Positions 2,179 to 15,770 of a stretch of DNA of 64,000 nt are shown one piece after another. A program made the position numbers and the translations under genes. The first letter of the stretch is position 1, and every line of letters starts with the position of its first letter. The notes beneath the pieces were generated by a model. That model ran no database searches. It was not told the origin of the DNA and was given only the letters and a program-made list of their open reading frames with translations. This DNA is from Acidiferrobacter sp. (GTDB lineage Bacteria; Pseudomonadota; Gammaproteobacteria; Acidiferrobacterales; Acidiferrobacteraceae): positions 1 to 64,000 of the forward strand of contig DAIDMD010000122.1 of assembly GCA_027449165.1 (NCBI GenBank). The letters run 5' to 3'.

Positions 2179-3305
2179 CTAGGCCGCGAGGGTCCGCGGC
2201 GGTTCCGAGACCTTGGGCCGATTGACTGCGGCCCTGGCCCGGGAACGGATGTTCCGGGCCGCGTTCACGTCGGCATGGTCTGTGTGTCCACAGGCCACGC
2301 AGCGGAACTCTGCTTGGGAGGGGCGGTTGGCCCGGTCGATGTGCCCGCAACCGGCACATTCCCGGCTGGTGTTGCGGGGGTCGACGATCTCCAGTCTCAC
2401 CCCGGCCCTTTGCGCTTTGTAGGCGACGTAGTGCCGGAGTTGATGGAAGGCCCAACCGCCCATCCTCGCCCGTTGTGCCTTGCGAAACCGTGTCCGGTCG
2501 CGGATGCCCTTTAAGTCTTCCAGGGCCAGTCCGCGCCCGGTGTCTTGGGCCTTGGCAACGAGCGATTTGGAGATCTGATGATTGATGTCTTTGCGAAAAC
2601 GGGCCTCCTGTCCGGAGAGCGTGCGCAGTTTGTGGCGAATGGCCTTAGGTCTGTATCCGCGGCGTTTACGCCCCGCCGCCGCCTTCTGCAGGAGGCATCT
2701 GTGGGTGTGGTGGCGGATGCGACAGGCCTCAAGGCCCTCTCCGCTGTGCCGGCCGCCATCGCTGTCGGTGGCGAGATTGACCACGCCCAGATCGACACCC
2801 AGAAAGTCGGTCGTTGGCGTCTTGGTGCCATCGGGCAGATCGACCGTCACCAGCAGGAACCATTTTCCGTCACGGCGGCGCACGAGGTCGCACTGGCCCT
2901 TGGCGGCGCTGAACCGCTCGGACTGGTAGGCGCCCATGATAAACGGCACGATGATCCGGCCCGAAAGCGTCAAGAGGCTCACCCGATCCATTCCCTTGAA
3001 GCTCATGAGGCGCAGGTCTAGGGCATGGCGGCGAAGGGACGGAAACGGGGCCGTTTCCCCTTGTCCCGTTTATAGGCCTCGCAGGTCTGGGCGATACACC
3101 GCACCGCCATCTGCGCCGAGAGATCAAACCGCGTACGCAGTTCCCGATAATAAAGCCTCTGCAAGAGGACCTTGTTGGCGGTCTTTCGGGCGAAGGCCTC
3201 GCCCGCCAGCCAATCCGCCGCCGCGTTGAAGGCCCGCATCGTGGCCTCCAACGCCGCCACCTGATCCGGTGCGGGCAGAAGGCGTGTTTGCAGGGCCCGC
3301 TTCAT
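2179..3305 (-). pseudogene. tnpB: TnpB RNA-guided endonuclease, split by a 1-nt frameshift
   Basis: N-terminal part (MKRALQTRLLPAPDQVAAL...RPRFRPFAAMP*) 3305-3018 and C-terminal part (LRLMSFKG...GVDLGVVNLAT...ALEDLKG...CAGC...CVAC...HADVNAARN) 3006-2179 lie in adjacent frames. A one-base insertion at CCCTA|GACCTG would restore TAY GAC CTG (Y-D-L). RuvC D/E/D residues and the zinc ribbon are present. Confidence 0.85.
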
Positions 3306-3380
3306 GGTTTGCCTAGTAGAGACGATAGCCCCATGGATCAACCATGGTGCAGCGACCGCTTCGCGATCGGCGCTCTGTCT

Positions 3381-3400
3381 CCCCGGCATCAATGCCGGGG
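3381..3400. repeat. Perfect inverted repeat, likely IS left-end hairpin
   Basis: CCCCGGCAT-CA-ATGCCGGGG upstream of tnpB start. Confidence 0.7.
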
Positions 3401-3531
3401 CTTCTCGCGCGTTTTTGGTGACAAGGTGGCCCGGTCTCGGTATGCCGCCCGCTCCCGCGGGGGCCGGCCGGGCCGTGCGCGGCCTGTCGGTCAAGATCGG
3501 GGGCCGGATGATCGGGCGTCGTCCCCCGCCG

Positions 3532-4914
3532 CTAATGAGTCCACGGCTGGAGCATGAAGGTCTGGTACTCGACGGCCTCCATGTCACGGTCGAGCCAGAC
3601 GAGGCCCACGAGCACCGAGACGAGCGCCGATAGCGAGAAGCCGTATCCATAGAAGTAGAGGCCGAGATGGGTGCTTACGATGGAGAGCCCGAGATTTAGG
3701 CCGAGGAAGATCGCGGTCAAGTTGACCACGCGCGCCCGGCGGTCGAGATAGAAGAAGATGTTGAGGATACCCATGAGCGCCACCTGGAGGCCCGTGCCGA
3801 CCACATCGATCTTGAAGAGCGGGACATAGAGCAGGGATATCCCGAGGGCCCTGAGGACCGCGGGCCCGACGACGAAGGCCAGGACGGTGGTGAGCGACTG
3901 GACCTTGATGATGTCGAAGATCCCGGTCTTGGCGCTGGTCACCATGCCGTTGCGCATATTGCGGATATAGGAAAGGCTCGCGCCCTCGCGCACGCCTTCG
4001 TAGAAGCGGTCGTAGTATTCGACGAAATCGGTCTCGACGCGCATCAGGAACACGGCCATTCCGGGGATGATGGCGAGGTAGGCTAGAAAGATCGGGAGGT
4101 CGTATATGGCGGATGCGCGCAGCGGACCGATCACGTCCTGGCTCGTGCTCGGCGTGAACCAGAAGACGAACTTGTCGGCCCAGATCGCGGCGTTATAGAA
4201 AAACCCGCAGACCATGAGCGACCAGTACATGCGGCCGCGCTTCAAGAAATCGAAGGCCAGGAAGTCCCGCGAAGGGTAGTCGCGGTAGACGATGGCGAGC
4301 AGCCCCGCGAACAGCAGGCACTGCCCCAACAGAAAGGCGAGCAATAGACCCACGAGCCCATAGGGGCGCAGCAGCAGTCCGAGACCGAGCGCGGCCCCGT
4401 AGGCGGCGACGAAGCATGCCACGATGGCGCGATAGTGCTTGAGGCCGGTCAGCATCACCGCGACGACCCACACGCCGGTCAGGAGGGCGAAAAGTGCGGT
4501 CATGAGCAGCCGGTAGACGAGGCCCGTCCCCGCGAACAAATAGACCGAGGCGAGCGTGGCCAGCGCGAAGGCGCTCCCCATGGCCACGATCAGCAGACCG
4601 TTCAGGTTGGGCAGAATGCGATGGTGTTCCCGGGCGAAGGCCCGGTCGGCGACATAGCGCGTGAAGGCGAGCTGCCAGACGCCGCAAAAAATGAGGCTCG
4701 TCGCTATGAGGTACGTGACCGACGTCTGGAATTCGCTTATGAGGCGCGGTGGAAAGACGTGGTTTATGCTGAGAAAGCCCAGAAAGATGACCCCCAGTAT
4801 GGAGACGACCCACGGCCCCGCGCCGACGATGCCGGCATAGGAGTAGGCGCGGACGATACCGAGATAGTCGTTGTGGCGCATGAGCTTGCGAAGCTCGAAA
4901 CCTATGCCCGCCAT
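3532..4914 (-). CDS. pelG: PelG, Pel exopolysaccharide transporter (multi-TM)
   Basis: MAGIGFELRKLMRHNDYLGIVRAYSYAGIVGAGPWVVSILGV..., last gene of the collinear pel operon. Confidence 0.95.
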   Translation of the reverse strand: MAGIGFELRKLMRHNDYLGIVRAYSYAGIVGAGPWVVSILGVIFLGFLSINHVFPPRLISEFQTSVTYLIATSLIFCGVWQLAFTRYVADRAFAREHHRILPNLNGLLIVAMGSAFALATLASVYLFAGTGLVYRLLMTALFALLTGVWVVAVMLTGLKHYRAIVACFVAAYGAALGLGLLLRPYGLVGLLLAFLLGQCLLFAGLLAIVYRDYPSRDFLAFDFLKRGRMYWSLMVCGFFYNAAIWADKFVFWFTPSTSQDVIGPLRASAIYDLPIFLAYLAIIPGMAVFLMRVETDFVEYYDRFYEGVREGASLSYIRNMRNGMVTSAKTGIFDIIKVQSLTTVLAFVVGPAVLRALGISLLYVPLFKIDVVGTGLQVALMGILNIFFYLDRRARVVNLTAIFLGLNLGLSIVSTHLGLYFYGYGFSLSALVSVLVGLVWLDRDMEAVEYQTFMLQPWTH

Positions 4915-4983
4915 GACCAGCTCCCCCGGTCGTCGTGGCGGCGGTGCGGCGCCCGCGCGGTCCGCAGACCCAAATGGCGCGTC

Positions 4984-6501
4984 TTAAGCATCGTAAGCCT
5001 CCTGATAGAGTTTCCGGTATTCTTGGAACATCAGGGTATCCGTGTAATAGGCCTCGACGCGGGCGATGGCCGCCGCCTGGGCGCTACGCCAGCGGGCCGG
5101 GTCGGTGAGCAGCGCGGTGGCGGCCTGGGCCAGCGCCTGCGGATCGGCGATTCCGATGATGTCTCCGGCGGACCCGAGGGCGTCGCCTTCGCCGCCGAAG
5201 ACCAGGCGGCGGCAGGCCCCTACATCGGTGCAGATCGCAGGCACACCCGCGGCGAAACCCTCGAGCAGCACCAACGGGAGCCCTTCGCTGATTGAACTCA
5301 AGATGAGCAGGTGGATCCTGGGCAGGATGTCGGTGACCGGCTGGAACCCCTTGAAGTGGACGTGCGCGGCGAGATCGAGGTTGTCCACGAGATTGCGGCA
5401 CTCGGCGGCATACACCGGGTCCTCGTCCTCGGGGCCCACGATCCAGCCCTGTGCGCCCGGGATTTCATCGAGAACCGCGGGCATGGCGCGGATAAAGGTC
5501 TTGATGTCCTTGATCGGCGTGACGCGGCCAAGCAGGCACAAGACCGGCGCGCCAAACGGCGGCTCGGGGCGCAGCGCGCGCAGGGCGGCGAACGGCTCGG
5601 TCGGCACGCCGTTGGGGATGATGAGGCTGCGTTGCTGGTCGGCGCCGTCGGCAATCTGCCGCTCCCGTGCCGCCGGGTACAAGGCCACGATCTTGTCCGC
5701 GGCGTCGTAGCAGGTTCGCCCCAGCGACTCGAAGAACGCGATCCAGAGTTCGCGGAGATAGCTGATTTCGCTCGGGTCGCGTTCCAGCCGGCTGCGGCGG
5801 TCGGCGACCCACGCGGCATTCAGGAGATCGATGCGGCGCTCCTTGGTGTAGATGCCGTGTTCGCTCAATATCAAAGGCCGTCCGGTGTGCCAGTGCAGGA
5901 GTGCGCCGAGCAGCCCGGCGTAGCCCGTGGAGACCGTATGATAGACGCGCGCCGGCGGCAGCTGGCGGGCAACGGCCGCAAGCCTCCAGATCGGCAGGTG
6001 CATGTTGCGTACCGTCCAGAAGTAATCGACGAACGAGGGATCGGTGCAGCGCTCCTCGTACGATTGGGTGATGTAATCCCAGCTGTCCTCGCCGTACAGG
6101 AATTCCGCGAGCGGGATTCCCCCGCCATCGTTGGCGTAGAAGGCGAGGTGGCGCAGAGGCTCCGGCAGGGACGGCCGTTCTTTGCGGCGGAGGGTCGTGT
6201 GGATGTCGCGCAGGCAGGCCGCGGTGCCGGGCGCGCGGCGCGGCGTCTCGGGCGGCGGCATGTCGTCCGGCGCGAAGAGGTAATGCGCCTCGAGATGCAC
6301 GAGGTTCTCCGGGAGCGTGTATTTCGGGTCGCCATAGTCCTCCGGGCGGCTCCCCAGGAACACGATTCCGAAGCGGTATTCCGGCATCCCTTGCATGATC
6401 TGGTTGACCCATGACGAGACGCCCCCGCTCACATACGGGAAGGTGCCTTCGAGCAGCAGCATGACATCGGCCGAGGCCGCCTTGGGAAACGCAATCGTCA
6501 T
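4984..6501 (-). CDS. pelF: PelF glycosyltransferase (GT4)
   Basis: MTIAFPKAASADVMLLLEGTFPYVSGGVSSWVNQIMQGMPEYRFGIVFLGS...; ATG at 6501 overlaps the pelE stop (ATGA). Confidence 0.95.
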   Translation of the reverse strand: MTIAFPKAASADVMLLLEGTFPYVSGGVSSWVNQIMQGMPEYRFGIVFLGSRPEDYGDPKYTLPENLVHLEAHYLFAPDDMPPPETPRRAPGTAACLRDIHTTLRRKERPSLPEPLRHLAFYANDGGGIPLAEFLYGEDSWDYITQSYEERCTDPSFVDYFWTVRNMHLPIWRLAAVARQLPPARVYHTVSTGYAGLLGALLHWHTGRPLILSEHGIYTKERRIDLLNAAWVADRRSRLERDPSEISYLRELWIAFFESLGRTCYDAADKIVALYPAARERQIADGADQQRSLIIPNGVPTEPFAALRALRPEPPFGAPVLCLLGRVTPIKDIKTFIRAMPAVLDEIPGAQGWIVGPEDEDPVYAAECRNLVDNLDLAAHVHFKGFQPVTDILPRIHLLILSSISEGLPLVLLEGFAAGVPAICTDVGACRRLVFGGEGDALGSAGDIIGIADPQALAQAATALLTDPARWRSAQAAAIARVEAYYTDTLMFQEYRKLYQEAYDA

Positions 6502-7487
6502 GGGGTGGGACTCCAGAGCCGGATCACGGGTCCTATCGTGGGGAGGTCGAGTAGTGACGGAAAATCCCGCCCCAGATCCTTCAGGGCCGAATAATCTCCG
6601 AGCCGAAAGCGGGTCTCGGCGAGATAGGGGAGGACCTGTCCGGGTGCGGCGTTTAGATTCAGGGCGCGCTCGCAATGGGTGCGGGCGGCCAGATAATGGC
6701 CCTCGAGCATGGCGATGCGGCCCATAAGGACATGAAGGGTGGCATCCTCCGGGCGGCGCCCCAGGGCCGCCAGGGCATGGGTTTGCGCACGGCGGATCGC
6801 GTGCGCCCGCAGATGGTCGCGCGAGAGGTCCTGGTAGAGGAGTTCCCAGTACAGAAAGGCCAAGCGCTTTTCGAGCGCGCTGGCGTCGTCGTCTGGTCCC
6901 AGAGACCGTCGTTGCACCAGCGCCTCGTTGATGGCCTCCGCCAGATCCCCTTCGCGCTGATCGAGTAGCCCGTAGGCCAGCAGGCGCAGGTCCTCTTCGG
7001 GATGGCGCAAGGCGGCGCGCGCAAGCGGCGAGGTCTGGCGCGAGAGACGGGGGTCGAGGGCGAGTAGGGCGCGCACGCCGCGCGCGGTCCCCGCATCCTT
7101 GGCCCGTAATATCGCCCACGCGCCCCCGGCCCCCATGTGGCGCTGGCGCCCTCGCATCTCGGCGCCGAAGGCCGGCAGGCCCAAAGTCCGCGGCTCCAGC
7201 ACCGGCATGCGGCTGTTCAGCCGCGCGATGCCCAGGGCTACGAGGGCGGCGATCGGCAGCCCCAGGACCGGGACCGCGACGATGAGTGTCGCAAAGAGTC
7301 CGTATCCGTGCCTCCGGTAGGGGTCCGGCAGCAGGCGCGTCAAGGGGCCCGCCAGCAGCAGCGCCAGCACGCCGTTGCCGGCCACGATGAATAGAAACAG
7401 GGATCGCGGCGAAAGGCCCCGAAATGGGCGCGCGATGCCCGATAGCGAGGCGTGGGACAGGGCGTAGGACGCGAAATCAGGCGTCAT
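6498..7487 (-). CDS. pelE: PelE (TM segments plus TPR-like region)
   Basis: Two N-terminal TM segments, then helical repeats; located between pelD and pelF as in canonical pelABCDEFG. Confidence 0.85.
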   Translation of the reverse strand: MTPDFASYALSHASLSGIARPFRGLSPRSLFLFIVAGNGVLALLLAGPLTRLLPDPYRRHGYGLFATLIVAVPVLGLPIAALVALGIARLNSRMPVLEPRTLGLPAFGAEMRGRQRHMGAGGAWAILRAKDAGTARGVRALLALDPRLSRQTSPLARAALRHPEEDLRLLAYGLLDQREGDLAEAINEALVQRRSLGPDDDASALEKRLAFLYWELLYQDLSRDHLRAHAIRRAQTHALAALGRRPEDATLHVLMGRIAMLEGHYLAARTHCERALNLNAAPGQVLPYLAETRFRLGDYSALKDLGRDFPSLLDLPTIGPVIRLWSPTP

Positions 7488-8799
7488 GGCTCGCCTCCGC
7501 CGCCGCGCTCAGCATCGGCAGGGCGTCGCCGCCCCCGATCGCGCGAATCGTTGTCGAATAGGTCTCGGGGCCGGGTTTTAGTCCAAACCGCTCCGCAAGC
7601 CGCGCCTTGACGCGGTCGATGTAACCCTCGGCCACAACCCGGTTGCTAAACGGCATGAGCGTGACGAGCCGGCACGCGTCGGGGCCCGTGATGCGCCAGT
7701 TGTCGTCGAGCCCGCGCGCAAGCGTCGCAAGGTCGTCTAGTATCTGGTCGCACGGAGCCGCTTTCGCGATCGCGATCGTGACGAGACTGCTTTGGAGATT
7801 GAGCTCGCGGGCGGCGCGCGCCAGCTTGACCGTTTCGGCCGCGAACCGCGGCGGACAGTGTGGCAGCGTCTTTAGAACATCTTGGGCGATGCGCGCGGCA
7901 TAGACGTCGTCTGCGAAGTAGGCCAGCAGAACGCTGATCGTAAGGAGGTTTTCGTCGTTCAGGAACAGGAACGGCATGGCCGCAACCACGAGTAGGCCCA
8001 GCATCGTCCCATCGGACGCCAGCAGGGGGGCTGCCACGAGGTAGGCGCTGTGCTCTCCGTCCTTGAGCGAGTTCACCGCCCAGTAGGCGGTCCGTCGCCT
8101 TTCGAGGCAGCGCGTGATCAGGATATCGTCGCGATCGAGATCGAAGGCCGCGCCGATGTGGGCGCAAGCCACCGGGTCGACGGCGTCTCCCGAGACCGCG
8201 TACAACGCCGCCTGCTCGAAGCCGCCATGGTAGGCGGTCAGGTGCAGCAATCGCGCGGCGACATCGCCCGCCAGTCCGTTGCCCTGGGTGACGAGCGCGC
8301 GCCGTAGTTCCAGAAGCGAATCGCGCAAGGTGACGGGTTTGCCGATGATGGTCTGCTCGAGGCGGTCGTGTGAGATCCGCGTCGTATGCAGCGTGCGCGT
8401 GAGCCCCTCGAGTTGTTGCGTGGCGTAGGTGCTCATCTGCTCTGAGCGGCGCAGGCGCAGGATCCACATGGAGCCGTATTCGCCGGACAGCAGCGTGAGC
8501 ATGATGCCGCCCAGGAATTGTTCTTGGGGAAGGCGATGGATATGTAGGGCCGGCAACCCGAGACGCGCGGCGACCAACGACAGGATCAAGACCGCCAGCG
8601 ACAAGACGGCCGGCGCCAGGCCGTAGCGCAGGGCCACCAGGACCGGGGCCAGCCACAGCCAGGGGAAGGTGGCGTCCACCAGAAACGGATCGTGCGGCCT
8701 TAGCGCAAAGGCGATCGCGATCGCGATGGCCGGGATCGCGATCGCTTCCGCCCAGGCCCGAGCTTGGGGAGACGGCGCGATATGATTGCGCAGGGTCAC
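7477..8799 (-). CDS. pelD: PelD, membrane c-di-GMP receptor (GAF plus degenerate GGDEF)
   Basis: From GTG at 8799: VTLRNHIAPSPQARAWAEAIAIPAIAIAIAFAL..., TM helices, GAF-like and degenerate GGDEF regions; RGLD (RxxD-type) at 7705-7716. Overlaps the pelC stop. Confidence 0.88.
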   Translation of the reverse strand: MTLRNHIAPSPQARAWAEAIAIPAIAIAIAFALRPHDPFLVDATFPWLWLAPVLVALRYGLAPAVLSLAVLILSLVAARLGLPALHIHRLPQEQFLGGIMLTLLSGEYGSMWILRLRRSEQMSTYATQQLEGLTRTLHTTRISHDRLEQTIIGKPVTLRDSLLELRRALVTQGNGLAGDVAARLLHLTAYHGGFEQAALYAVSGDAVDPVACAHIGAAFDLDRDDILITRCLERRRTAYWAVNSLKDGEHSAYLVAAPLLASDGTMLGLLVVAAMPFLFLNDENLLTISVLLAYFADDVYAARIAQDVLKTLPHCPPRFAAETVKLARAARELNLQSSLVTIAIAKAAPCDQILDDLATLARGLDDNWRITGPDACRLVTLMPFSNRVVAEGYIDRVKARLAERFGLKPGPETYSTTIRAIGGGDALPMLSAAAEASHDA

Positions 8800-9317
8800 G
8801 AGAGCAGCCTTTGGACCATGGCGTTCAAGGCGTTTTCGGCGAGCACGCCGACGCTCTCGCGGGGCGAACCGCTCCGGCTGGCGGTCGCCGTCCAGATGAT
8901 GCGCCCGCTGCGCACGCTCACGAGATTCATGGTGACGGCGACCGCCGGCTGTCCGTCCAGGCCTATGGTGTAGCGCCACTCCTGGACCGCGCCCTCGACG
9001 ATGTAGCGGGCGCCCATCGCCCGGGCCTTTCGGAGCAGGGTCGCGGGGTTGGGTTCGAGGCCGAGCGGCAGGCGGTTGCGGCGGCCGACGGCCATCGCGC
9101 TCGCGGTCTTGAGGCCGTGGGCCTGCAGGAGGCTTGCGGCCATGGACGCCGCGCGCGAGCCGGCCCCCGGGGTCGTCGTGTAGTTGGCGAATGGGGCGAC
9201 CGCGACCGCGGCGGTGCGCGCGAAGGGCACCGCGCGGCTGGCGTGGAGAGTGCTGTCCGCGCAGCCAGACAGCGTGATGCATATCGTAATGCAAGAGATG
9301 CGCTTTATCAGGGCCAT
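8796..9317 (-). CDS. pelC: PelC outer-membrane lipoprotein
   Basis: MALIKRISCITICITLSGCADSTLHASRAVPFARTAAVAVAPFANYTTTPGAG...; lipobox-like LSGC. Confidence 0.9.
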   Translation of the reverse strand: MALIKRISCITICITLSGCADSTLHASRAVPFARTAAVAVAPFANYTTTPGAGSRAASMAASLLQAHGLKTASAMAVGRRNRLPLGLEPNPATLLRKARAMGARYIVEGAVQEWRYTIGLDGQPAVAVTMNLVSVRSGRIIWTATASRSGSPRESVGVLAENALNAMVQRLLS

Positions 9318-9326
9318 GATCCCCTC

Positions 9327-12122
9327 CTAAGGTTTGAAGTAGTAGTCGTAGCGCAGGCCGATCGCCTGCAGGCGGTTGTCGATGCCGACACCCCCTTGGC
9401 TGCGCGTGTAGTAGACGGCCAAGTGGTCTGAGCCTATGAGCGGTGTTGCAACCCCGACGGAAATGTCGTAGCCGGCATGCGTGACGCTGTTGTCGAAGAC
9501 CTCCAGATCGAAAAACGGGCGCAGGCCCGGGGCGTAATGGCGCCGGTAGGTCTCCCCGAAGTGCATGTCGAGGCCCGCCTGGACATAGCTTTGCGGCACG
9601 AAAAAGCCGATCCCCGCACCGCCCGGGGGCAGGAGCGGTACGAGTACGGCCGGCACGGTGCCGGTCGCCCGGTAATGGGCGAACGACAAGGCCGCACCGA
9701 CCGTAAGATCGGGGTATGCCAGGCGGATCTTGTGGTCATAGTGAAAGTTTGCGATAAGGCCGGTTCCAAGGGCCCCGCCTCCCTGGGCGCTGAATCGGCG
9801 ATAGGAAAGCCGCCCGTTTATGGTGTCGCGTGCCGTCAGCGCCTGGGCGTCCATTATGCTCATGCCGTCTTTGACTCCCCCGAGGTACAGCGACGGAAGG
9901 TCGTAGGCGCGCATGTGGTAGTTCAGGCGTATCGTCTGCGTGGTGCGCGGCCAGAACGCCGTTGCCCAGCTTGCCTGGGCGTAGAGGAAGCGCGTCACGG
10001 CCGATCGGCGGCCCAGCGTCAGGCGGTAGGCGCCGGACGGACGCCATAGGCCGATCGCGAAGTGTTCAGACCGATCGAAGCGCGGGACGGCGCCGATGAG
10101 CGCCGGGTCGGTGCGGCCATCCAGACTGTTGCGGACCCCGGCCTCTATCTCGGTCCCGGGGTTTACCATGTGGCGCGTCGCGATGCCCTCGATCAGGGCA
10201 CTGAAGCCGGCACTCCGCAGGTATCGGATCCGGCCCGTCAGGCGGTCGGACTGGCGCAGCAAGAGCCGCCGGTATTCGTGGGCGAGCGGGGCGTCGGAGC
10301 GGCTCGCGCTCAGGCTCGCGAAGGCTTCCGATACGGCCCGGGCCGGTTCCCCGATCGCCGCGGCGGCGTCCACCCGGCCCGTCCGCGGAAGGGTGAGGCT
10401 GTGGCGGGCGAGCAGCGCGCGCAGCTGCATCCCGTTGTGGTCGCCCTGGGCTACGGCAAGGGCCGCCCATGGGGGCGCGTGGCGGGCATAGCCTTCCACC
10501 GCGTAGCCCGCGGGGGCGTAGGCGCTGCGTGCCAGTGCATAACCAAGCAGGATGTCGCGGCTTACCCCTCCTGGCCGTCCTTCGGCGCCCTGGGCAAGCA
10601 GCGCCATGGCGACCGGGGCGGTTGCCAGATCGATGGCCAGGGCGGCGCGCTTTCGGGCCTTGTGGCGTAGGTCGCCGGCCTGGGGCGCGAGGAGCGTGGC
10701 AAAGGCGCGTCGGCGCACAGATATTGCTGCGCCCGGGCGGCCGTCCTTGGCAAGGCTGTCGGCAAACGGCAACAACAGCCGCGGATCGTTCGGGTGGCGG
10801 CGCAGCAGGGCTTCCAGATAGGGAATCGCGAGGCGCGGCTCGTTTATGGTGAGGAAGGACAGGGCGTACGGGAGCCAGAGCGAGCGGTTGCGGTCGACGG
10901 TCGGCGCCCACGACAGCAAGGTGGCCGCGAGGCGCGGGGCGCGGCCCGTCGCCACGAAAAACCAGAGATAGGACCCAAGGATGGCGCCGTTGCCGGGAAA
11001 GCGCCGCAAGGCCTCGCGGTAGACGCGCTCGGCGTTCCGATAATGCCGTTGCACGGCCTGGCAGCGGGCGAGCCCGGTCCAATAGTAGGGGTTGGCGGTA
11101 AGCCGCCCGGCGTCACCGGCGGTGACTTGCGCGAAGGTCCGAACGAGCAGGGCGCGTGAGCGCAGCCGCTCGGCCAGGCTGAGCATGGCGAAAAAGAAGT
11201 TCGGGCTGTGGTAACGCCGGAAGCCTTCCAGGGCAAGCAGATACGATGTCCGCGGGTGCCGGCGTTCGCCGAGAAGTACGAGATGGGCGAGATCGGCGCG
11301 GGTCGCCGTGCCCCGCGCATAGAGGGCCTGGGCGGCCGAGAGCGCCGTCGGAAAGTCCTGGCGCATCCAGGCGAGCGCCCCCAACGTATGGTAATAGCTG
11401 AAGTGGCGCGTCGACACCGAGGCGGCGTGCCGGACCAGCAGCCGGTAGGCGCGGCCGGGGTGTCCGCTGCGGTAAAAGAGCGACGCCTCGGTCAGCAGAA
11501 CGCGGGCGGTGGCGCCGTACCGGTGATCGTAGGCGCGCAACGCGGCGAGCTCTTGCGTCTGCGCCCCGAGGCTGTTTTCCAGCGTTATGATAGACCAAAG
11601 GTAACGCCGGCGCGGGGTCTTGCGCATGGCCTGCTGGAGCCAGGCGATGGCCCGCCGGGGATGGCCTTGCAGTTGGTAGAGGCGGCTCATCTCCTCGACG
11701 AGGGCCGGTGCGCCCGGATGGCGTTTGAGGCGCAGGGCGAGCAGCTGGGTCAGGTGGGTGAAGGCCGACAGGCCGCTTGCCAAGGTCCATGCCGGCTTGA
11801 GGTAGGAGATCTGGCCGTGGCCTGCGAGATAGACGAGGGAGCGCAAGGCGACATGGTCATGCCCGGTCCACAACGCGGTCTTGGCGAGCCGCCGGCGCCA
11901 GGCGAGGTCGTGCGGGCGGTTTCCGACCGCCGTCAAGGCCACATCATAGGCCGCCTGCACGTCGCCGGAATTCAGGAATACCTTATAGGAAAGCGCGTAG
12001 TCGCGCCGATTATAGGGCGTTTGCGGAAGGGCCGGGGCGGCCGCGGCGAAGGCTACGGGCCACGGTCCCATCACGGCCGTCACGGCCGCGCCAAGGGCGA
12101 GGAATCGGCGTATGTTCACCAT
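9327..12122 (-). CDS. pelB: PelB C-terminal moiety: signal peptide, TPRs and OM beta-barrel
   Basis: MVNIRRFLALGAAVTAVMGPWPVAFAAAAPALPQ (signal peptide), long TPR-like region, C-terminal beta-barrel ending ...GLRYDYYFKP (aromatic-rich end). The ORF may begin at TTG 12128. Confidence 0.88.
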   Translation of the reverse strand: MVNIRRFLALGAAVTAVMGPWPVAFAAAAPALPQTPYNRRDYALSYKVFLNSGDVQAAYDVALTAVGNRPHDLAWRRRLAKTALWTGHDHVALRSLVYLAGHGQISYLKPAWTLASGLSAFTHLTQLLALRLKRHPGAPALVEEMSRLYQLQGHPRRAIAWLQQAMRKTPRRRYLWSIITLENSLGAQTQELAALRAYDHRYGATARVLLTEASLFYRSGHPGRAYRLLVRHAASVSTRHFSYYHTLGALAWMRQDFPTALSAAQALYARGTATRADLAHLVLLGERRHPRTSYLLALEGFRRYHSPNFFFAMLSLAERLRSRALLVRTFAQVTAGDAGRLTANPYYWTGLARCQAVQRHYRNAERVYREALRRFPGNGAILGSYLWFFVATGRAPRLAATLLSWAPTVDRNRSLWLPYALSFLTINEPRLAIPYLEALLRRHPNDPRLLLPFADSLAKDGRPGAAISVRRRAFATLLAPQAGDLRHKARKRAALAIDLATAPVAMALLAQGAEGRPGGVSRDILLGYALARSAYAPAGYAVEGYARHAPPWAALAVAQGDHNGMQLRALLARHSLTLPRTGRVDAAAAIGEPARAVSEAFASLSASRSDAPLAHEYRRLLLRQSDRLTGRIRYLRSAGFSALIEGIATRHMVNPGTEIEAGVRNSLDGRTDPALIGAVPRFDRSEHFAIGLWRPSGAYRLTLGRRSAVTRFLYAQASWATAFWPRTTQTIRLNYHMRAYDLPSLYLGGVKDGMSIMDAQALTARDTINGRLSYRRFSAQGGGALGTGLIANFHYDHKIRLAYPDLTVGAALSFAHYRATGTVPAVLVPLLPPGGAGIGFFVPQSYVQAGLDMHFGETYRRHYAPGLRPFFDLEVFDNSVTHAGYDISVGVATPLIGSDHLAVYYTRSQGGVGIDNRLQAIGLRYDYYFKP

Positions 12123-12124
12123 GG

Positions 12125-12985
12125 TCAAGGCATGCGCAGCAGTTGCTTGGCGTAGCGCGCCGCGACCGCGGGTTCATTCGCGGCGCGCGCCAGCGCGATC
12201 ATTCGTCGCAGGATGGCGGGCCGCCCCTCAAGGCCGCCGAGATGGCGGCCGCCCTCGCGGACTGCGAGCGCGACCTCATTGTGGCTTTGCAAGGCCTGCA
12301 TGGCCCCCAGGAAATAGCGGGCCGCCGCCGCGCGTGTCGGCGCGTAGTGTTCGGCCGAGAAATAGAGATGCGCCGCCAGCCGGGGGTGACCAAGGCCGTA
12401 GGCCGCGGCCGCCGCCAGCGCATAGTAGGCCGGGCGACGGGCATGGCCGCGCCGCGCCAGATCCCGGTAAATCGCGATCGCGGTTTTCTGATCATGGATG
12501 ACGACCGCCTCGCGCGCCAGACCGCGCAGCGCCCGTGGTCCGGCCCCCGGACGCAATTGGTCGATGAGCAGGCGTAGGGTATGGTCGTTATGCGAGCGCG
12601 CGGCGCTCCCTCTGGGATAGCGGTCGTTCATCGCGAGCAGGTCGCGATAGTAGAGCCAGCGGATGCGTTGCCGGGAGGCGCCGGCTTGGGTGCGGGCCAG
12701 CAGCGGCGCGAGGGCGCGCAGCGCGGCAATGTCGTGGCCGGTCTCGATCTCGCGGCGCACCAGCAAAAGCGTGATGGCCCGCCTGTGGTTGTCGCGGGCA
12801 AGGGCCTTCGCGAAATAGAGGCCGATCGCCGGTGTGCGCGACTCTTGGATCCGCCGCAAGAACGCCCCCGGGTTGAAGAGCAGCGCAAGTGTAAGCACGA
12901 TGCCGAGCGCAAGGCCCGCGACCAGGGTCGGGGGCGCAAGGCGTTCGCGCGCGCCGTCAGGGGCATGCAGCCGTGAAATGACCAT
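12125..12985 (-). CDS. PelB N-terminal-like protein: one TM helix plus TPR
   Basis: PPTLVAGLALGIVLTLALLFNPGAFLRRIQESRTPAIGLYFAKALARDNHRRAITLLLVRREIETG..., single N-terminal TM and helical repeats; sits exactly between pelA and the pelB barrel ORF. Confidence 0.8.
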   Translation of the reverse strand: MVISRLHAPDGARERLAPPTLVAGLALGIVLTLALLFNPGAFLRRIQESRTPAIGLYFAKALARDNHRRAITLLLVRREIETGHDIAALRALAPLLARTQAGASRQRIRWLYYRDLLAMNDRYPRGSAARSHNDHTLRLLIDQLRPGAGPRALRGLAREAVVIHDQKTAIAIYRDLARRGHARRPAYYALAAAAAYGLGHPRLAAHLYFSAEHYAPTRAAAARYFLGAMQALQSHNEVALAVREGGRHLGGLEGRPAILRRMIALARAANEPAVAARYAKQLLRMP

Positions 12986-15770
12986 GGTGCGCCTCCAGGT
13001 GGTAGGTCATCAGGGATCCGTCGGGTCGTCCCCGAAGGACAAGGTCGCCGTCCATGACCCGGCAGCCGGCGGCATTCGCCAGCCGGAAGGAAAGCGGCGC
13101 GTTGCCCCGGAGGGCGAAGGAAAGGGCCGCCCCGTGGTAGGAGGCGGCGCGGATCGCGGCGTTGGCGTCGTGAAGAAAGGGCACGCGGGGGCGCATCGGC
13201 GTAAGCCGGATCCGTACCGTCTTTCCGGCGGGCACCGGGGCGATATGGATGTAGCGCACCGCGCCGTGGCGATCGAACCCCGCCAGGCCGCGGCTGCCGC
13301 GCAGCCGCGGGTAGCCAAGCCGCGCCGGGATGCGCCATTCCTGCGCGGCCCCGGCATCGCTTATGTACCAGCTGTGCGCGCCACGCGCGACCACCGCATG
13401 CCCGAAATCCACCGCGATGCGGGCGAAGTGGGATGGGAAGACCGGGTCCGTTCTTTGGCGAAGGGCCCAGGCGATCACGGTACGCAAGGCGCGCAGACCG
13501 GCGACCCGCGCCCCGGAATAGAAGTGATAGTAGATGTCGAGCGGCTTCAGGCGTCTGGGTGTGTCGGTCAGCTTGAAGGTCTGAATCGCCCGGACATAGC
13601 CGTAATAGTAGGGGCTCGTCCAACTGTGGGTGTAGACGTTCTCGTCTTGCATGGGCGAATAGACCTGGAAATGGCGGCCCTTGAAGATCCCGAGGCCGCG
13701 CACCTTCGTCACGAATGGCTCGGCGTAGGTCTCGGTGGCCCCGCCGCCGTTTAAGTTGAGGACGTGCGCGCGGTAGCTCAAGGCCAGCACACGGGCATCA
13801 GGATCGCAATCCCCGGACCATTGCACGAGCGAGACGCGCTTGCCGCGCGGGGCGATGTGGCGGTCTATCCACCGGTCGGCCCACACGATCTCCTTGCGGG
13901 CGCTGAATCGGGTGTAGCCGGGGACCGCCAACGCGTATCCGTAACGCAGGTTGCCCTTATGGCCCATGAGGCCGGGGTCGCGTTCCAGGGCCGGCCAGTC
14001 GAAGGGGTGGGAAAAGGTGTGGGATGCGACCTCGACCCATGGGAGGGCTGCGATCCGCCGCGCGATCGCCGTGAGCTTCGTGGCCGCCTTGGGGAACAGC
14101 CCATGGGGCGTGAAGTAGGAGACGATAAAGGATGCCGAGGTGGGGATGCGGTACTTCTCCAAGATCTGCTTCAAGATGACTGCGCCGGCGTACTGGTCCC
14201 GATAGCGGTAGATCCAGCTCTTATTGGCGAAGCCGTCGCCGTCGATCTGCGCCATGAGCATGCGCCGGCCGCTCTCGGTGGTGGTGTCCGGAACGGGCAT
14301 GGGCGGCAGGCGCAAGGCCTTGCGAAAGAACCGGAACGGGTTCAGGACCCATGCCGCCGGGGCCTTGCCTTTGCGGTGCGGCACCGCGCCAAGAGCGCTT
14401 ACGACGTCCGGCGACAGGGCGTAGCCGCCCCAGGGCGTAAGGCCGATCGCATCTTCGGTCTGCCCCTGCGCATCGCGCAGCGCAAGCAGCGTCCGGCCCT
14501 TGCGCAACGCGAGCGGCAGAAAATTGTCGGGCGCCGCCGGCACCGGGTGCGTCTCGAACCCGACGTAGCGCGGGTCGCTGAATGCCACGCGGTTTTGGAC
14601 CAAGCCGCGCGGGATGCGCCCGGCCGACAGGCCGAGCGCGCGCAGTTGTCCGGCGTCGGCTGGGAACCCGAAGCTCCCGAGCACCGCGACCGGCACCCCA
14701 TCGCGCATCTGGCGGCGCAGCCAGCGATAGAGCGCGGCGCCCTGCGTCACATGATTGTTCTCGAACCATGTGACGATACCCGCATAACGGCCGGCCAGGG
14801 TTCCGCGCGGCAGCCCGTCGGCCACGTTGCGGATGCGCGTGCTGTAGCCCAGATAATTCAGCGGCATCGCGGCATACCAGTTGAGCGACGTATGCTGAGC
14901 ATCCTCGGGTCCGCTGTAGAGCATGAGGATCTTGCGTGGCATGACGCGAATCGTACTGACGCCGAGCAGCGAGAGCCGGCCGTCGGCCACATACGGGGTA
15001 ATCCCCAAGGCGGCGATGCGCCGGGCGTCGGCGACCGCCTGCCGTCGCCGGCCGGGGGGGAGATAGTCGATGGCTATGACCGGCAGCCCCAGACGGCGAG
15101 CCCCGGCGAGCTTTTGCAACAAGGACCGGCGTGTCGCCGCCGCCACCTGCACATAGCGGCCGGTCCTTTGATCCCAGCCGTCGAACAAGGACTCGGCGGC
15201 GACCGCCGACACGAGCGTGCGAATGGCTGGCAGGATGGCAAATCCCCGATTGAGTATGAGCCGGGCCTCGGGGTGCGAGGCCTTGATCGCGCGGATCAGG
15301 CGGATGAGCCCCTGGCGTTGCCGGGCCCGGCCCGCCTTGGTCGCCACGGCCTGACGGTAGGCGTCGATGTCGTCGAGAAAAAACCCGCGATAGCCCCGGC
15401 GCCATAACGGCGCGAGCACATCGTGAAGGAAGTCCCGCCGACATGTCCGGCGCGCCTCGTCGAGGATGGCCGTACCCCAGGTCCGATCCTTTCCGAGCAC
15501 GCAGCGCGGCGGGATTCGCCGGTATTCGCCCGGCGAGGCCTCGCCGACGGCCGCGTAGGCGAACGCGCGCTCCCGGCCCTGGTCGAAGCGGCGCGGGGAG
15601 AAGGCCGAGTCCGGCTGAACCACCACCCAACGAAAGGCCTGCAGCGCGTGGCGCGGAGGGTGAGCGCCATAATAGAAGGCGATACTGAAGGGGCGCGCCT
15701 GAGCGGACAGCGCCAGCACGAACATCGCTGCGAGCGCGGCTAGGCCGAGTTTGAGGTCATGTAACCGCAT
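12957..15770 (-). CDS. pelA: PelA, glycoside hydrolase / deacetylase
   Basis: MRLHDLKLGLAALAAMFVLALSAQARPFSIAFYYGAHPP...; N-terminal glycosidase-like region, deacetylase-like motifs (QIDGDGFANKSW, EVASHTFSHPFDW). Confidence 0.93.
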   Translation of the reverse strand: MRLHDLKLGLAALAAMFVLALSAQARPFSIAFYYGAHPPRHALQAFRWVVVQPDSAFSPRRFDQGRERAFAYAAVGEASPGEYRRIPPRCVLGKDRTWGTAILDEARRTCRRDFLHDVLAPLWRRGYRGFFLDDIDAYRQAVATKAGRARQRQGLIRLIRAIKASHPEARLILNRGFAILPAIRTLVSAVAAESLFDGWDQRTGRYVQVAAATRRSLLQKLAGARRLGLPVIAIDYLPPGRRRQAVADARRIAALGITPYVADGRLSLLGVSTIRVMPRKILMLYSGPEDAQHTSLNWYAAMPLNYLGYSTRIRNVADGLPRGTLAGRYAGIVTWFENNHVTQGAALYRWLRRQMRDGVPVAVLGSFGFPADAGQLRALGLSAGRIPRGLVQNRVAFSDPRYVGFETHPVPAAPDNFLPLALRKGRTLLALRDAQGQTEDAIGLTPWGGYALSPDVVSALGAVPHRKGKAPAAWVLNPFRFFRKALRLPPMPVPDTTTESGRRMLMAQIDGDGFANKSWIYRYRDQYAGAVILKQILEKYRIPTSASFIVSYFTPHGLFPKAATKLTAIARRIAALPWVEVASHTFSHPFDWPALERDPGLMGHKGNLRYGYALAVPGYTRFSARKEIVWADRWIDRHIAPRGKRVSLVQWSGDCDPDARVLALSYRAHVLNLNGGGATETYAEPFVTKVRGLGIFKGRHFQVYSPMQDENVYTHSWTSPYYYGYVRAIQTFKLTDTPRRLKPLDIYYHFYSGARVAGLRALRTVIAWALRQRTDPVFPSHFARIAVDFGHAVVARGAHSWYISDAGAAQEWRIPARLGYPRLRGSRGLAGFDRHGAVRYIHIAPVPAGKTVRIRLTPMRPRVPFLHDANAAIRAASYHGAALSFALRGNAPLSFRLANAAGCRVMDGDLVLRGRPDGSLMTYHLEAHHGHFTAACP

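Follow-up and report, generated by a model that had tools for sequence, protein, structure and literature searches.

PelB has been depicted as a single rod that connects the inner membrane with the outer one and guides the sugar between them. In the DNA analysed here, a stretch of 64,000 nucleotides from Acidiferrobacter sp. (the window), two open reading frames take the place of pelB between pelA and pelC. This raises the questions whether they encode one PelB in two pieces, whether the split is real, and how a polymer would pass from one piece to the other. The genome (G000) is a draft of 2.08 Mb in 171 contigs and 77% complete. L039, labelled Acidiferrobacteraceae, is its closest named relative in a scan of genome contigs.

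The pel operon lies on the minus strand with the gene order pelA, 286-residue ORF, 931-residue ORF, pelC, pelD, pelE, pelF and pelG. The product of pelA (12957–15770; from the ORF list, start codon chosen by eye) has a GH114-type hydrolase at its N-terminus (PF03537), and the gene overlaps that of the 286-residue protein by 29 nt. A pelC-like lipoprotein (8796–9317) is recognised by an LpoB/GNA1162-like match and an LSGC lipobox in the sequence, pelD (7477–8820, start approximate) by PF16963 PelD_GGDEF (E = 8e-24), the glycosyltransferase gene pelF (4984–6498) by NF038011 (701 bits, E = 7e-211) and pelG (3532–4914) by PF16933 (E = 1e-150). With pelA, C, D, F and G identified in this way and a pelE-like membrane/TPR protein (6498–7487) assigned by its position and a weak TPR match, the locus belongs to the pelABCDEFG type. 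According to the Pfam and NCBIfam family matches, the operon genes other than pelB are intact, and the operon is apparently complete with a fissioned pelB gene. Directly downstream of pelG, TnpB-like ORFs (IS200/IS605-type, with a CxxC zinc motif) are located at 2179–3650.

The upstream piece, PelB-N (286 residues, 12125–12985, minus strand), has a single hydrophobic stretch at about residues 19–37 (12875–12931) with a Kyte-Doolittle 19-residue mean of 2.31 and the residues RER just before it. A signal-peptidase-like site of the AXA type was looked for nearby by simple rules and none was seen; an uncleaved transmembrane helix is predicted. AlphaFold also places a helix at 19–37, with low local confidence. 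A phmmer search of PelB-N against the PDB yielded nothing credible (best E = 0.89) and no family matched in Pfam or NCBIfam, so the identity of the protein is visible by profile-profile comparison only. In hhalign, the profile of eight PelB-N orthologues aligns with that of 13 one-piece PelBs at positions 4–292 (probability 99.7, E = 6e-26). The second-best placement has a probability of 0.5%, the match survives removal of the transmembrane region (probability 99.3, E = 6e-21), and control profiles, either reversed or shuffled, remain below 1%. PelB-N is thus the equivalent of residues ~1–286 of one-piece PelB. The part of PelB that consists of the N-terminal inner-membrane helix and the TPRs next to it is present, but on a separate 286-residue protein. 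The AlphaFold model is reliable in its last third only. There the C-terminus forms a full helix pair (residues 256–268 and 272–283, pLDDT 86–94), which indicates a cut between repeats. Foldseek with this model retrieved generic TPR proteins only, and its result therefore does not count here towards the identification as PelB.

The downstream piece, PelB-C (931 residues, 9327–12122, minus strand, ATG at 12122), corresponds to residues ~290–1193 of one-piece PelB. Residues 42–913 align in phmmer with 290–1177 of the PelB chain in PDB entry 9h80 (E = 1e-33), and hhalign places the PelB-C family at profile positions 294–1214 (probability 100, E = 1e-74). The N-terminus, MVNIRRFLALGAAVTAVMGPWPVAFA followed by AAA, looks like a cleavable signal peptide (12045–12122); cleavage is likely after residue 26, between VAFA and AAA. 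Signal peptides were called by simple rules (hydropathy and the small-residue −3/−1 rule), and by these rules one is present in every PelB-C orthologue. The TPR scaffold of PelB is found as TPR_15 (E = 1e-50), TPR_19 and others. It is followed by the C-terminal β-barrel domain, a 16-strand barrel in PelB, at 9339–10259 (B-barrel_PelB_C, PF24604; E = 1e-50, 176.6 bits, above the cut-off). By alignment offset, positions 11559–11873 are equivalent to residues 332–436 of Pseudomonas aeruginosa PelB, a fragment that has been crystallised and lies inside the PelA-binding repeats. AlphaFold, run with two-row alignments, yielded a poor model of PelB-C (mean pLDDT 39), which was likewise not used to establish identity.

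The complementary profile ranges and the clean controls indicate that both proteins cover PelB once, in order and without a real gap or overlap. The signal peptide of PelB-C is the only surplus over one-piece PelB. An earlier note on this DNA had placed two ORFs between pelA and pelC at 12985–12125 and 12122–9327, and these coordinates and the sizes are correct. It had described the smaller protein as helical repeats behind an N-terminal transmembrane helix and the larger one as a signal peptide, TPRs and a barrel, and had proposed that both together amount to PelB in the same order; all of this holds, since the hhalign ranges are colinear and complete. The profile match of 12125–12985 to the PelB N-terminus, on which that proposal had been made to depend, is present. 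Hydropathy, signal peptide and profile placement also agree with its picture of an anchored TPR piece and a separately exported TPR-barrel piece.

At the junction (12119–12128, minus strand) the TGA of PelB-N (12127–12125) is followed after 2 nt by the ATG of PelB-C (12122) in a different frame. Two frames separated by merely 2 nt could point to a single ORF broken by a sequencing or assembly frameshift. Such an error can practically be dismissed and was rejected, because the same break recurs in 15 loci of separate genomes, among them the single-contig genomes G005 and G759. Furthermore, the signal peptide on the downstream ORF has no counterpart in one-piece PelB, and G006 shows a frame offset that differs from the other split loci. 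The earlier note's view of the junction as genuine stands, and the survey of pel loci that it had suggested finds the break at the same profile position in all split loci. PelB is present in 9 of 14 genomes of the window's genus, and all eight same-genus loci covering the region, including that of G005, carry both pelB genes. The seven split loci elsewhere comprise two-piece (G576, G649, G678, G759 and G549) and three-piece forms (G014 and G691). In every split locus the break lies at profile positions 284–293/294–300, each upstream piece has a transmembrane helix and each downstream piece a signal peptide. A single polypeptide across both membranes is not encoded in these loci; the pieces are separate ORFs in 15 of 15, and the window's PelB is a two-gene protein. 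In L091 (G678; minus strand, 3127–5939) a frame change near PelB-C residue 175 is either an error or a real disruption.

In 12 of the 15 split loci the two genes share 4 nt at the junction (ATGA or GTGA, with stop and start codon overlapping); in the other three, stop and start codon are 2–5 nt apart. The downstream frame is open for 4–84 codons upstream of the PelB-C start, varying among the loci, as programmed frameshifting or readthrough that additionally yields a fused protein in the cell could use. This is hardly conceivable, however, as frame offset and overlap length vary among the loci and the fused product would hold a signal peptide amid the repeats. It is also unlikely, if less extremely so, that PelB-N is a remnant that is decaying or can be spared, with PelB-C sufficing alone in the manner of PgaA, whose architecture PelB-C resembles by itself. 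The reduced exported PelB of G371, which does without these repeats, speaks for that idea. Against it, none of the 15 split loci has lost PelB-N, and dN/dS shows purifying selection on this gene within the window's genus (0.17–0.32, compared with 0.18–0.29 for PelB-C), on which grounds a decaying remnant was rejected. The variable spacing and frame of the junction together with these dN/dS values for practical purposes exclude sequencing error, frameshifting and decay. Judged from the sequences, the split is real and old.

The distribution of the split was examined almost wholly within Pseudomonadota. Among 17 genomes above the PF24604 cut-off in an even sample of the phylum, 15 have one long frame, one is the window's genome and one has a short exported PelB (G371); in the class sample, 8 of 16 are split. 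The PelF tree groups its 11 split loci in one clade (97/97) and places the 22 fused loci outside it, which corresponds to a single change. The PelB tree agrees, again with one clade of split loci (94/95) and one change. At the position of the break, eight sister one-piece PelBs contain a linker of 34–108 poorly conserved residues, compared with 2–4 residues in 14 others. The linker-type sisters include Azonexus hydrophilus (34 residues) and Cupriavidus metallidurans CH34 (99 residues). The linker lies exactly where the split proteins are cut, which indicates that the fission cut a pre-existing hinge. In the deep-branching split member G649, Pro-rich remnants are found on both sides, as a tail of PelB-N and as a long lead before the first PelB-C repeat. 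The fused sister-group protein of G062 has 4 residues at this position and lacks the linker; the history of the linker thus needs one extra change, and G062 must have lost the linker or branched off earlier.

The simplest history would begin with continuous repeats, into which a linker was inserted; the linker would then have been cut and a signal peptide gained. The polarity from one piece to two rests on the placement of fused loci around the split clade, in a PelF tree rooted on Cetobacterium with thin root sampling and a long outgroup branch. With the same root, the nesting of the split loci as one clade among fused loci makes it very unlikely that the split is ancestral and the Pseudomonas-type PelB a later fusion, and the tails of G649 resemble linker leftovers. 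The related exporters PgaA and BcsC, which are signal-peptide TPR-barrel proteins, would fit an ancestral split.

In the three-piece loci (G014: L067 3744–4691, 4601–6316 and 6313–7806; G691: L094 2907–6918; all minus strand) the exported part is in turn divided between two proteins, both of which start with what resembles a signal peptide. The middle piece reaches profile position 735–737, and the match of the barrel piece sets in at 765–826. In P. aeruginosa PelB the TPRs end at residue 726, where the alpha-rich region begins (PMC12022489), so the second cut is also near a module border. G549, a relative of G014 and G691, has the first cut only. In G014 and G691 the signal peptide of the middle piece is separated from its first repeat by ~75 additional residues. 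This N-terminal extension is conserved (WWxAPGSL...KTGKGxxYLxQGGVSPSWYxPP), also occurs in G549 and is missing from most other PelBs examined.

Regarding function, PelA binds TPR9–14 of PelB, TPR1–9 are proposed to take the polymer from PelDEFG (PMC12022489), and PelC requires the stalk and the last TPRs of PelB (PMC12141448). By alignment, the anchor and the earliest repeats fall on PelB-N, while PelB-C begins a little ahead of the block that binds PelA and comprises all the rest; the exported piece has the repeats for PelA binding as well as the alpha-rich region and barrel. The AlphaFold3 model of PelB has a kink after TPR8 (PMC12022489). The break is near this kink, not at it, and no link between the two was drawn. 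We consider it likely that PelB underwent fission at an acquired linker into a receiver, PelB-N, and an exporter, PelB-C, with hand-over of the polymer without a covalent bridge. As the sequences show, a one-piece ancestor gained a flexible linker between two TPR blocks, and in one descendant lineage the linker was cut, leaving PelB-N anchored in the membrane and PelB-C exported by its gained signal peptide. PelB-N would reside in the inner membrane beside the PelDEFG synthase and receive the new polymer. PelB-C would insert its barrel in the outer membrane, surrounded by the PelC ring, and bind PelA. The polymer may then pass from PelB-N to PelB-C through a loose or transient contact between the blocks, via PelA, or both. 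The overlap of stop and start codons suggests that synthesis of the two pieces is coupled and nearly equal.

The docking of PelB-N and PelB-C may be non-covalent, indirect or absent. The earlier note had inferred that assembly would need an intermolecular TPR-TPR contact. In this version the blocks would dock end to end, with their TPRs joined across the interface into a single uninterrupted superhelix. This is possible but doubtful. The cut separates whole repeats, and in the models each of the new ends resembles a full helix pair, the second at low confidence; furthermore, the first PelB-C repeat has a conserved Y/F-x4-Y-x-L-A/S-Y/W motif. The motif is, however, common to the fused sister PelBs and was dropped as a sign of a new docking interface. 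The ~75 residues that precede the first repeat in G014 and G691 also argue against such stacking. Given the floppy linker of the sister proteins, the solenoid was probably interrupted at this point before fission, and stacking no longer follows from the ancestry of the two pieces. Returning to hand-over without a covalent bridge, it is on balance plausible, taken as a whole, that a clade of Pel machines exists without any covalent periplasmic bridge. Its exporter would be divided at natural module borders, with a first cut at the hinge between repeats and, in some members, a second one close to where the TPRs meet the alpha-rich region and barrel, and the polymer would be passed between modules that are separately anchored or exported.

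The window family matches P. aeruginosa PelB (1193 residues; PDB entries 9h80 and 5WFT) end to end by profile and shares its operon position, domain order, barrel family and the partners PelC and PelA. P. aeruginosa PelB differs in being one polypeptide with an uncleaved N-terminal anchor, and the Pseudomonas type has ~3 residues at the window's cut point. The sister-group PelBs of A. hydrophilus and C. metallidurans CH34 have the same post-junction motif and a loose linker at the junction but are still one chain. In PgaA and BcsC, and likewise in AlgK/AlgE, a TPR scaffold feeds an outer-membrane barrel. These proteins differ from the window in serving other polymers, and we know of no inner-membrane-anchored TPR partner of the PelB-N kind in any of them. 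AlgK and AlgE are separate proteins (PMC12022489). The legend of Fig. 5 iii in a 2020 study already notes 'pelB fission' in aquatic thermophilic species, with pelB divided into separate loci as in the window (PMC7112194). Fission of pelB as such is thus known. Searches of the open-access literature turned up no account of where pelB breaks, of the gained signal peptide, of the linker precursor or of a three-piece form.

That a lineage has long kept PelB in two or three pieces, each anchored or exported on its own, suggests that a covalent tie from membrane to membrane is not required. The split marks module ends and provides natural parts that can be expressed separately when the complex is to be reconstituted. 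Annotation pipelines tend to give the pieces no more than the name of a TPR or hypothetical protein, and a pel locus of this kind may then look as if it had no intact pelB.

Other arrangements of pelB were also encountered. In G009 (contig 2, L068 at ~174 kb and L069 at ~736 kb) pelB is interrupted after roughly residue 643, and the barrel and pelC–F lie ~560 kb away. The same 513-residue ORF, probably from a mobile element, is present at both ends and suggests a rearrangement between element copies. The short exported PelB of G371 (L061, minus strand, 5026–6930; ~618 residues) matches profile positions 637–1213 only and adjoins a 317-residue PelA-like ORF, forming a reduced Pel export locus. 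In the alphaproteobacterium Azospirillum thermophilum (plasmid NZ_CP029356; L136, 1108–5830) and in G421 (L066, 1181–5816), scaffold and putative barrel come from adjacent genes as in the window, but the division appears to lie between scaffold and barrel and the match to PelB is weak. The pieces are a TPR scaffold of ~1020 residues with an N-terminal membrane helix and a putative barrel of ~530 residues with a signal peptide (~1019 and 527 residues in A. thermophilum). On Cereibacter and Sulfitobacter plasmids (L135 and L139) pelF–pelG, with no annotated PelB, stand beside a Wza-like gene of the 'polysaccharide biosynthesis/export family', which suggests another outer-membrane route.
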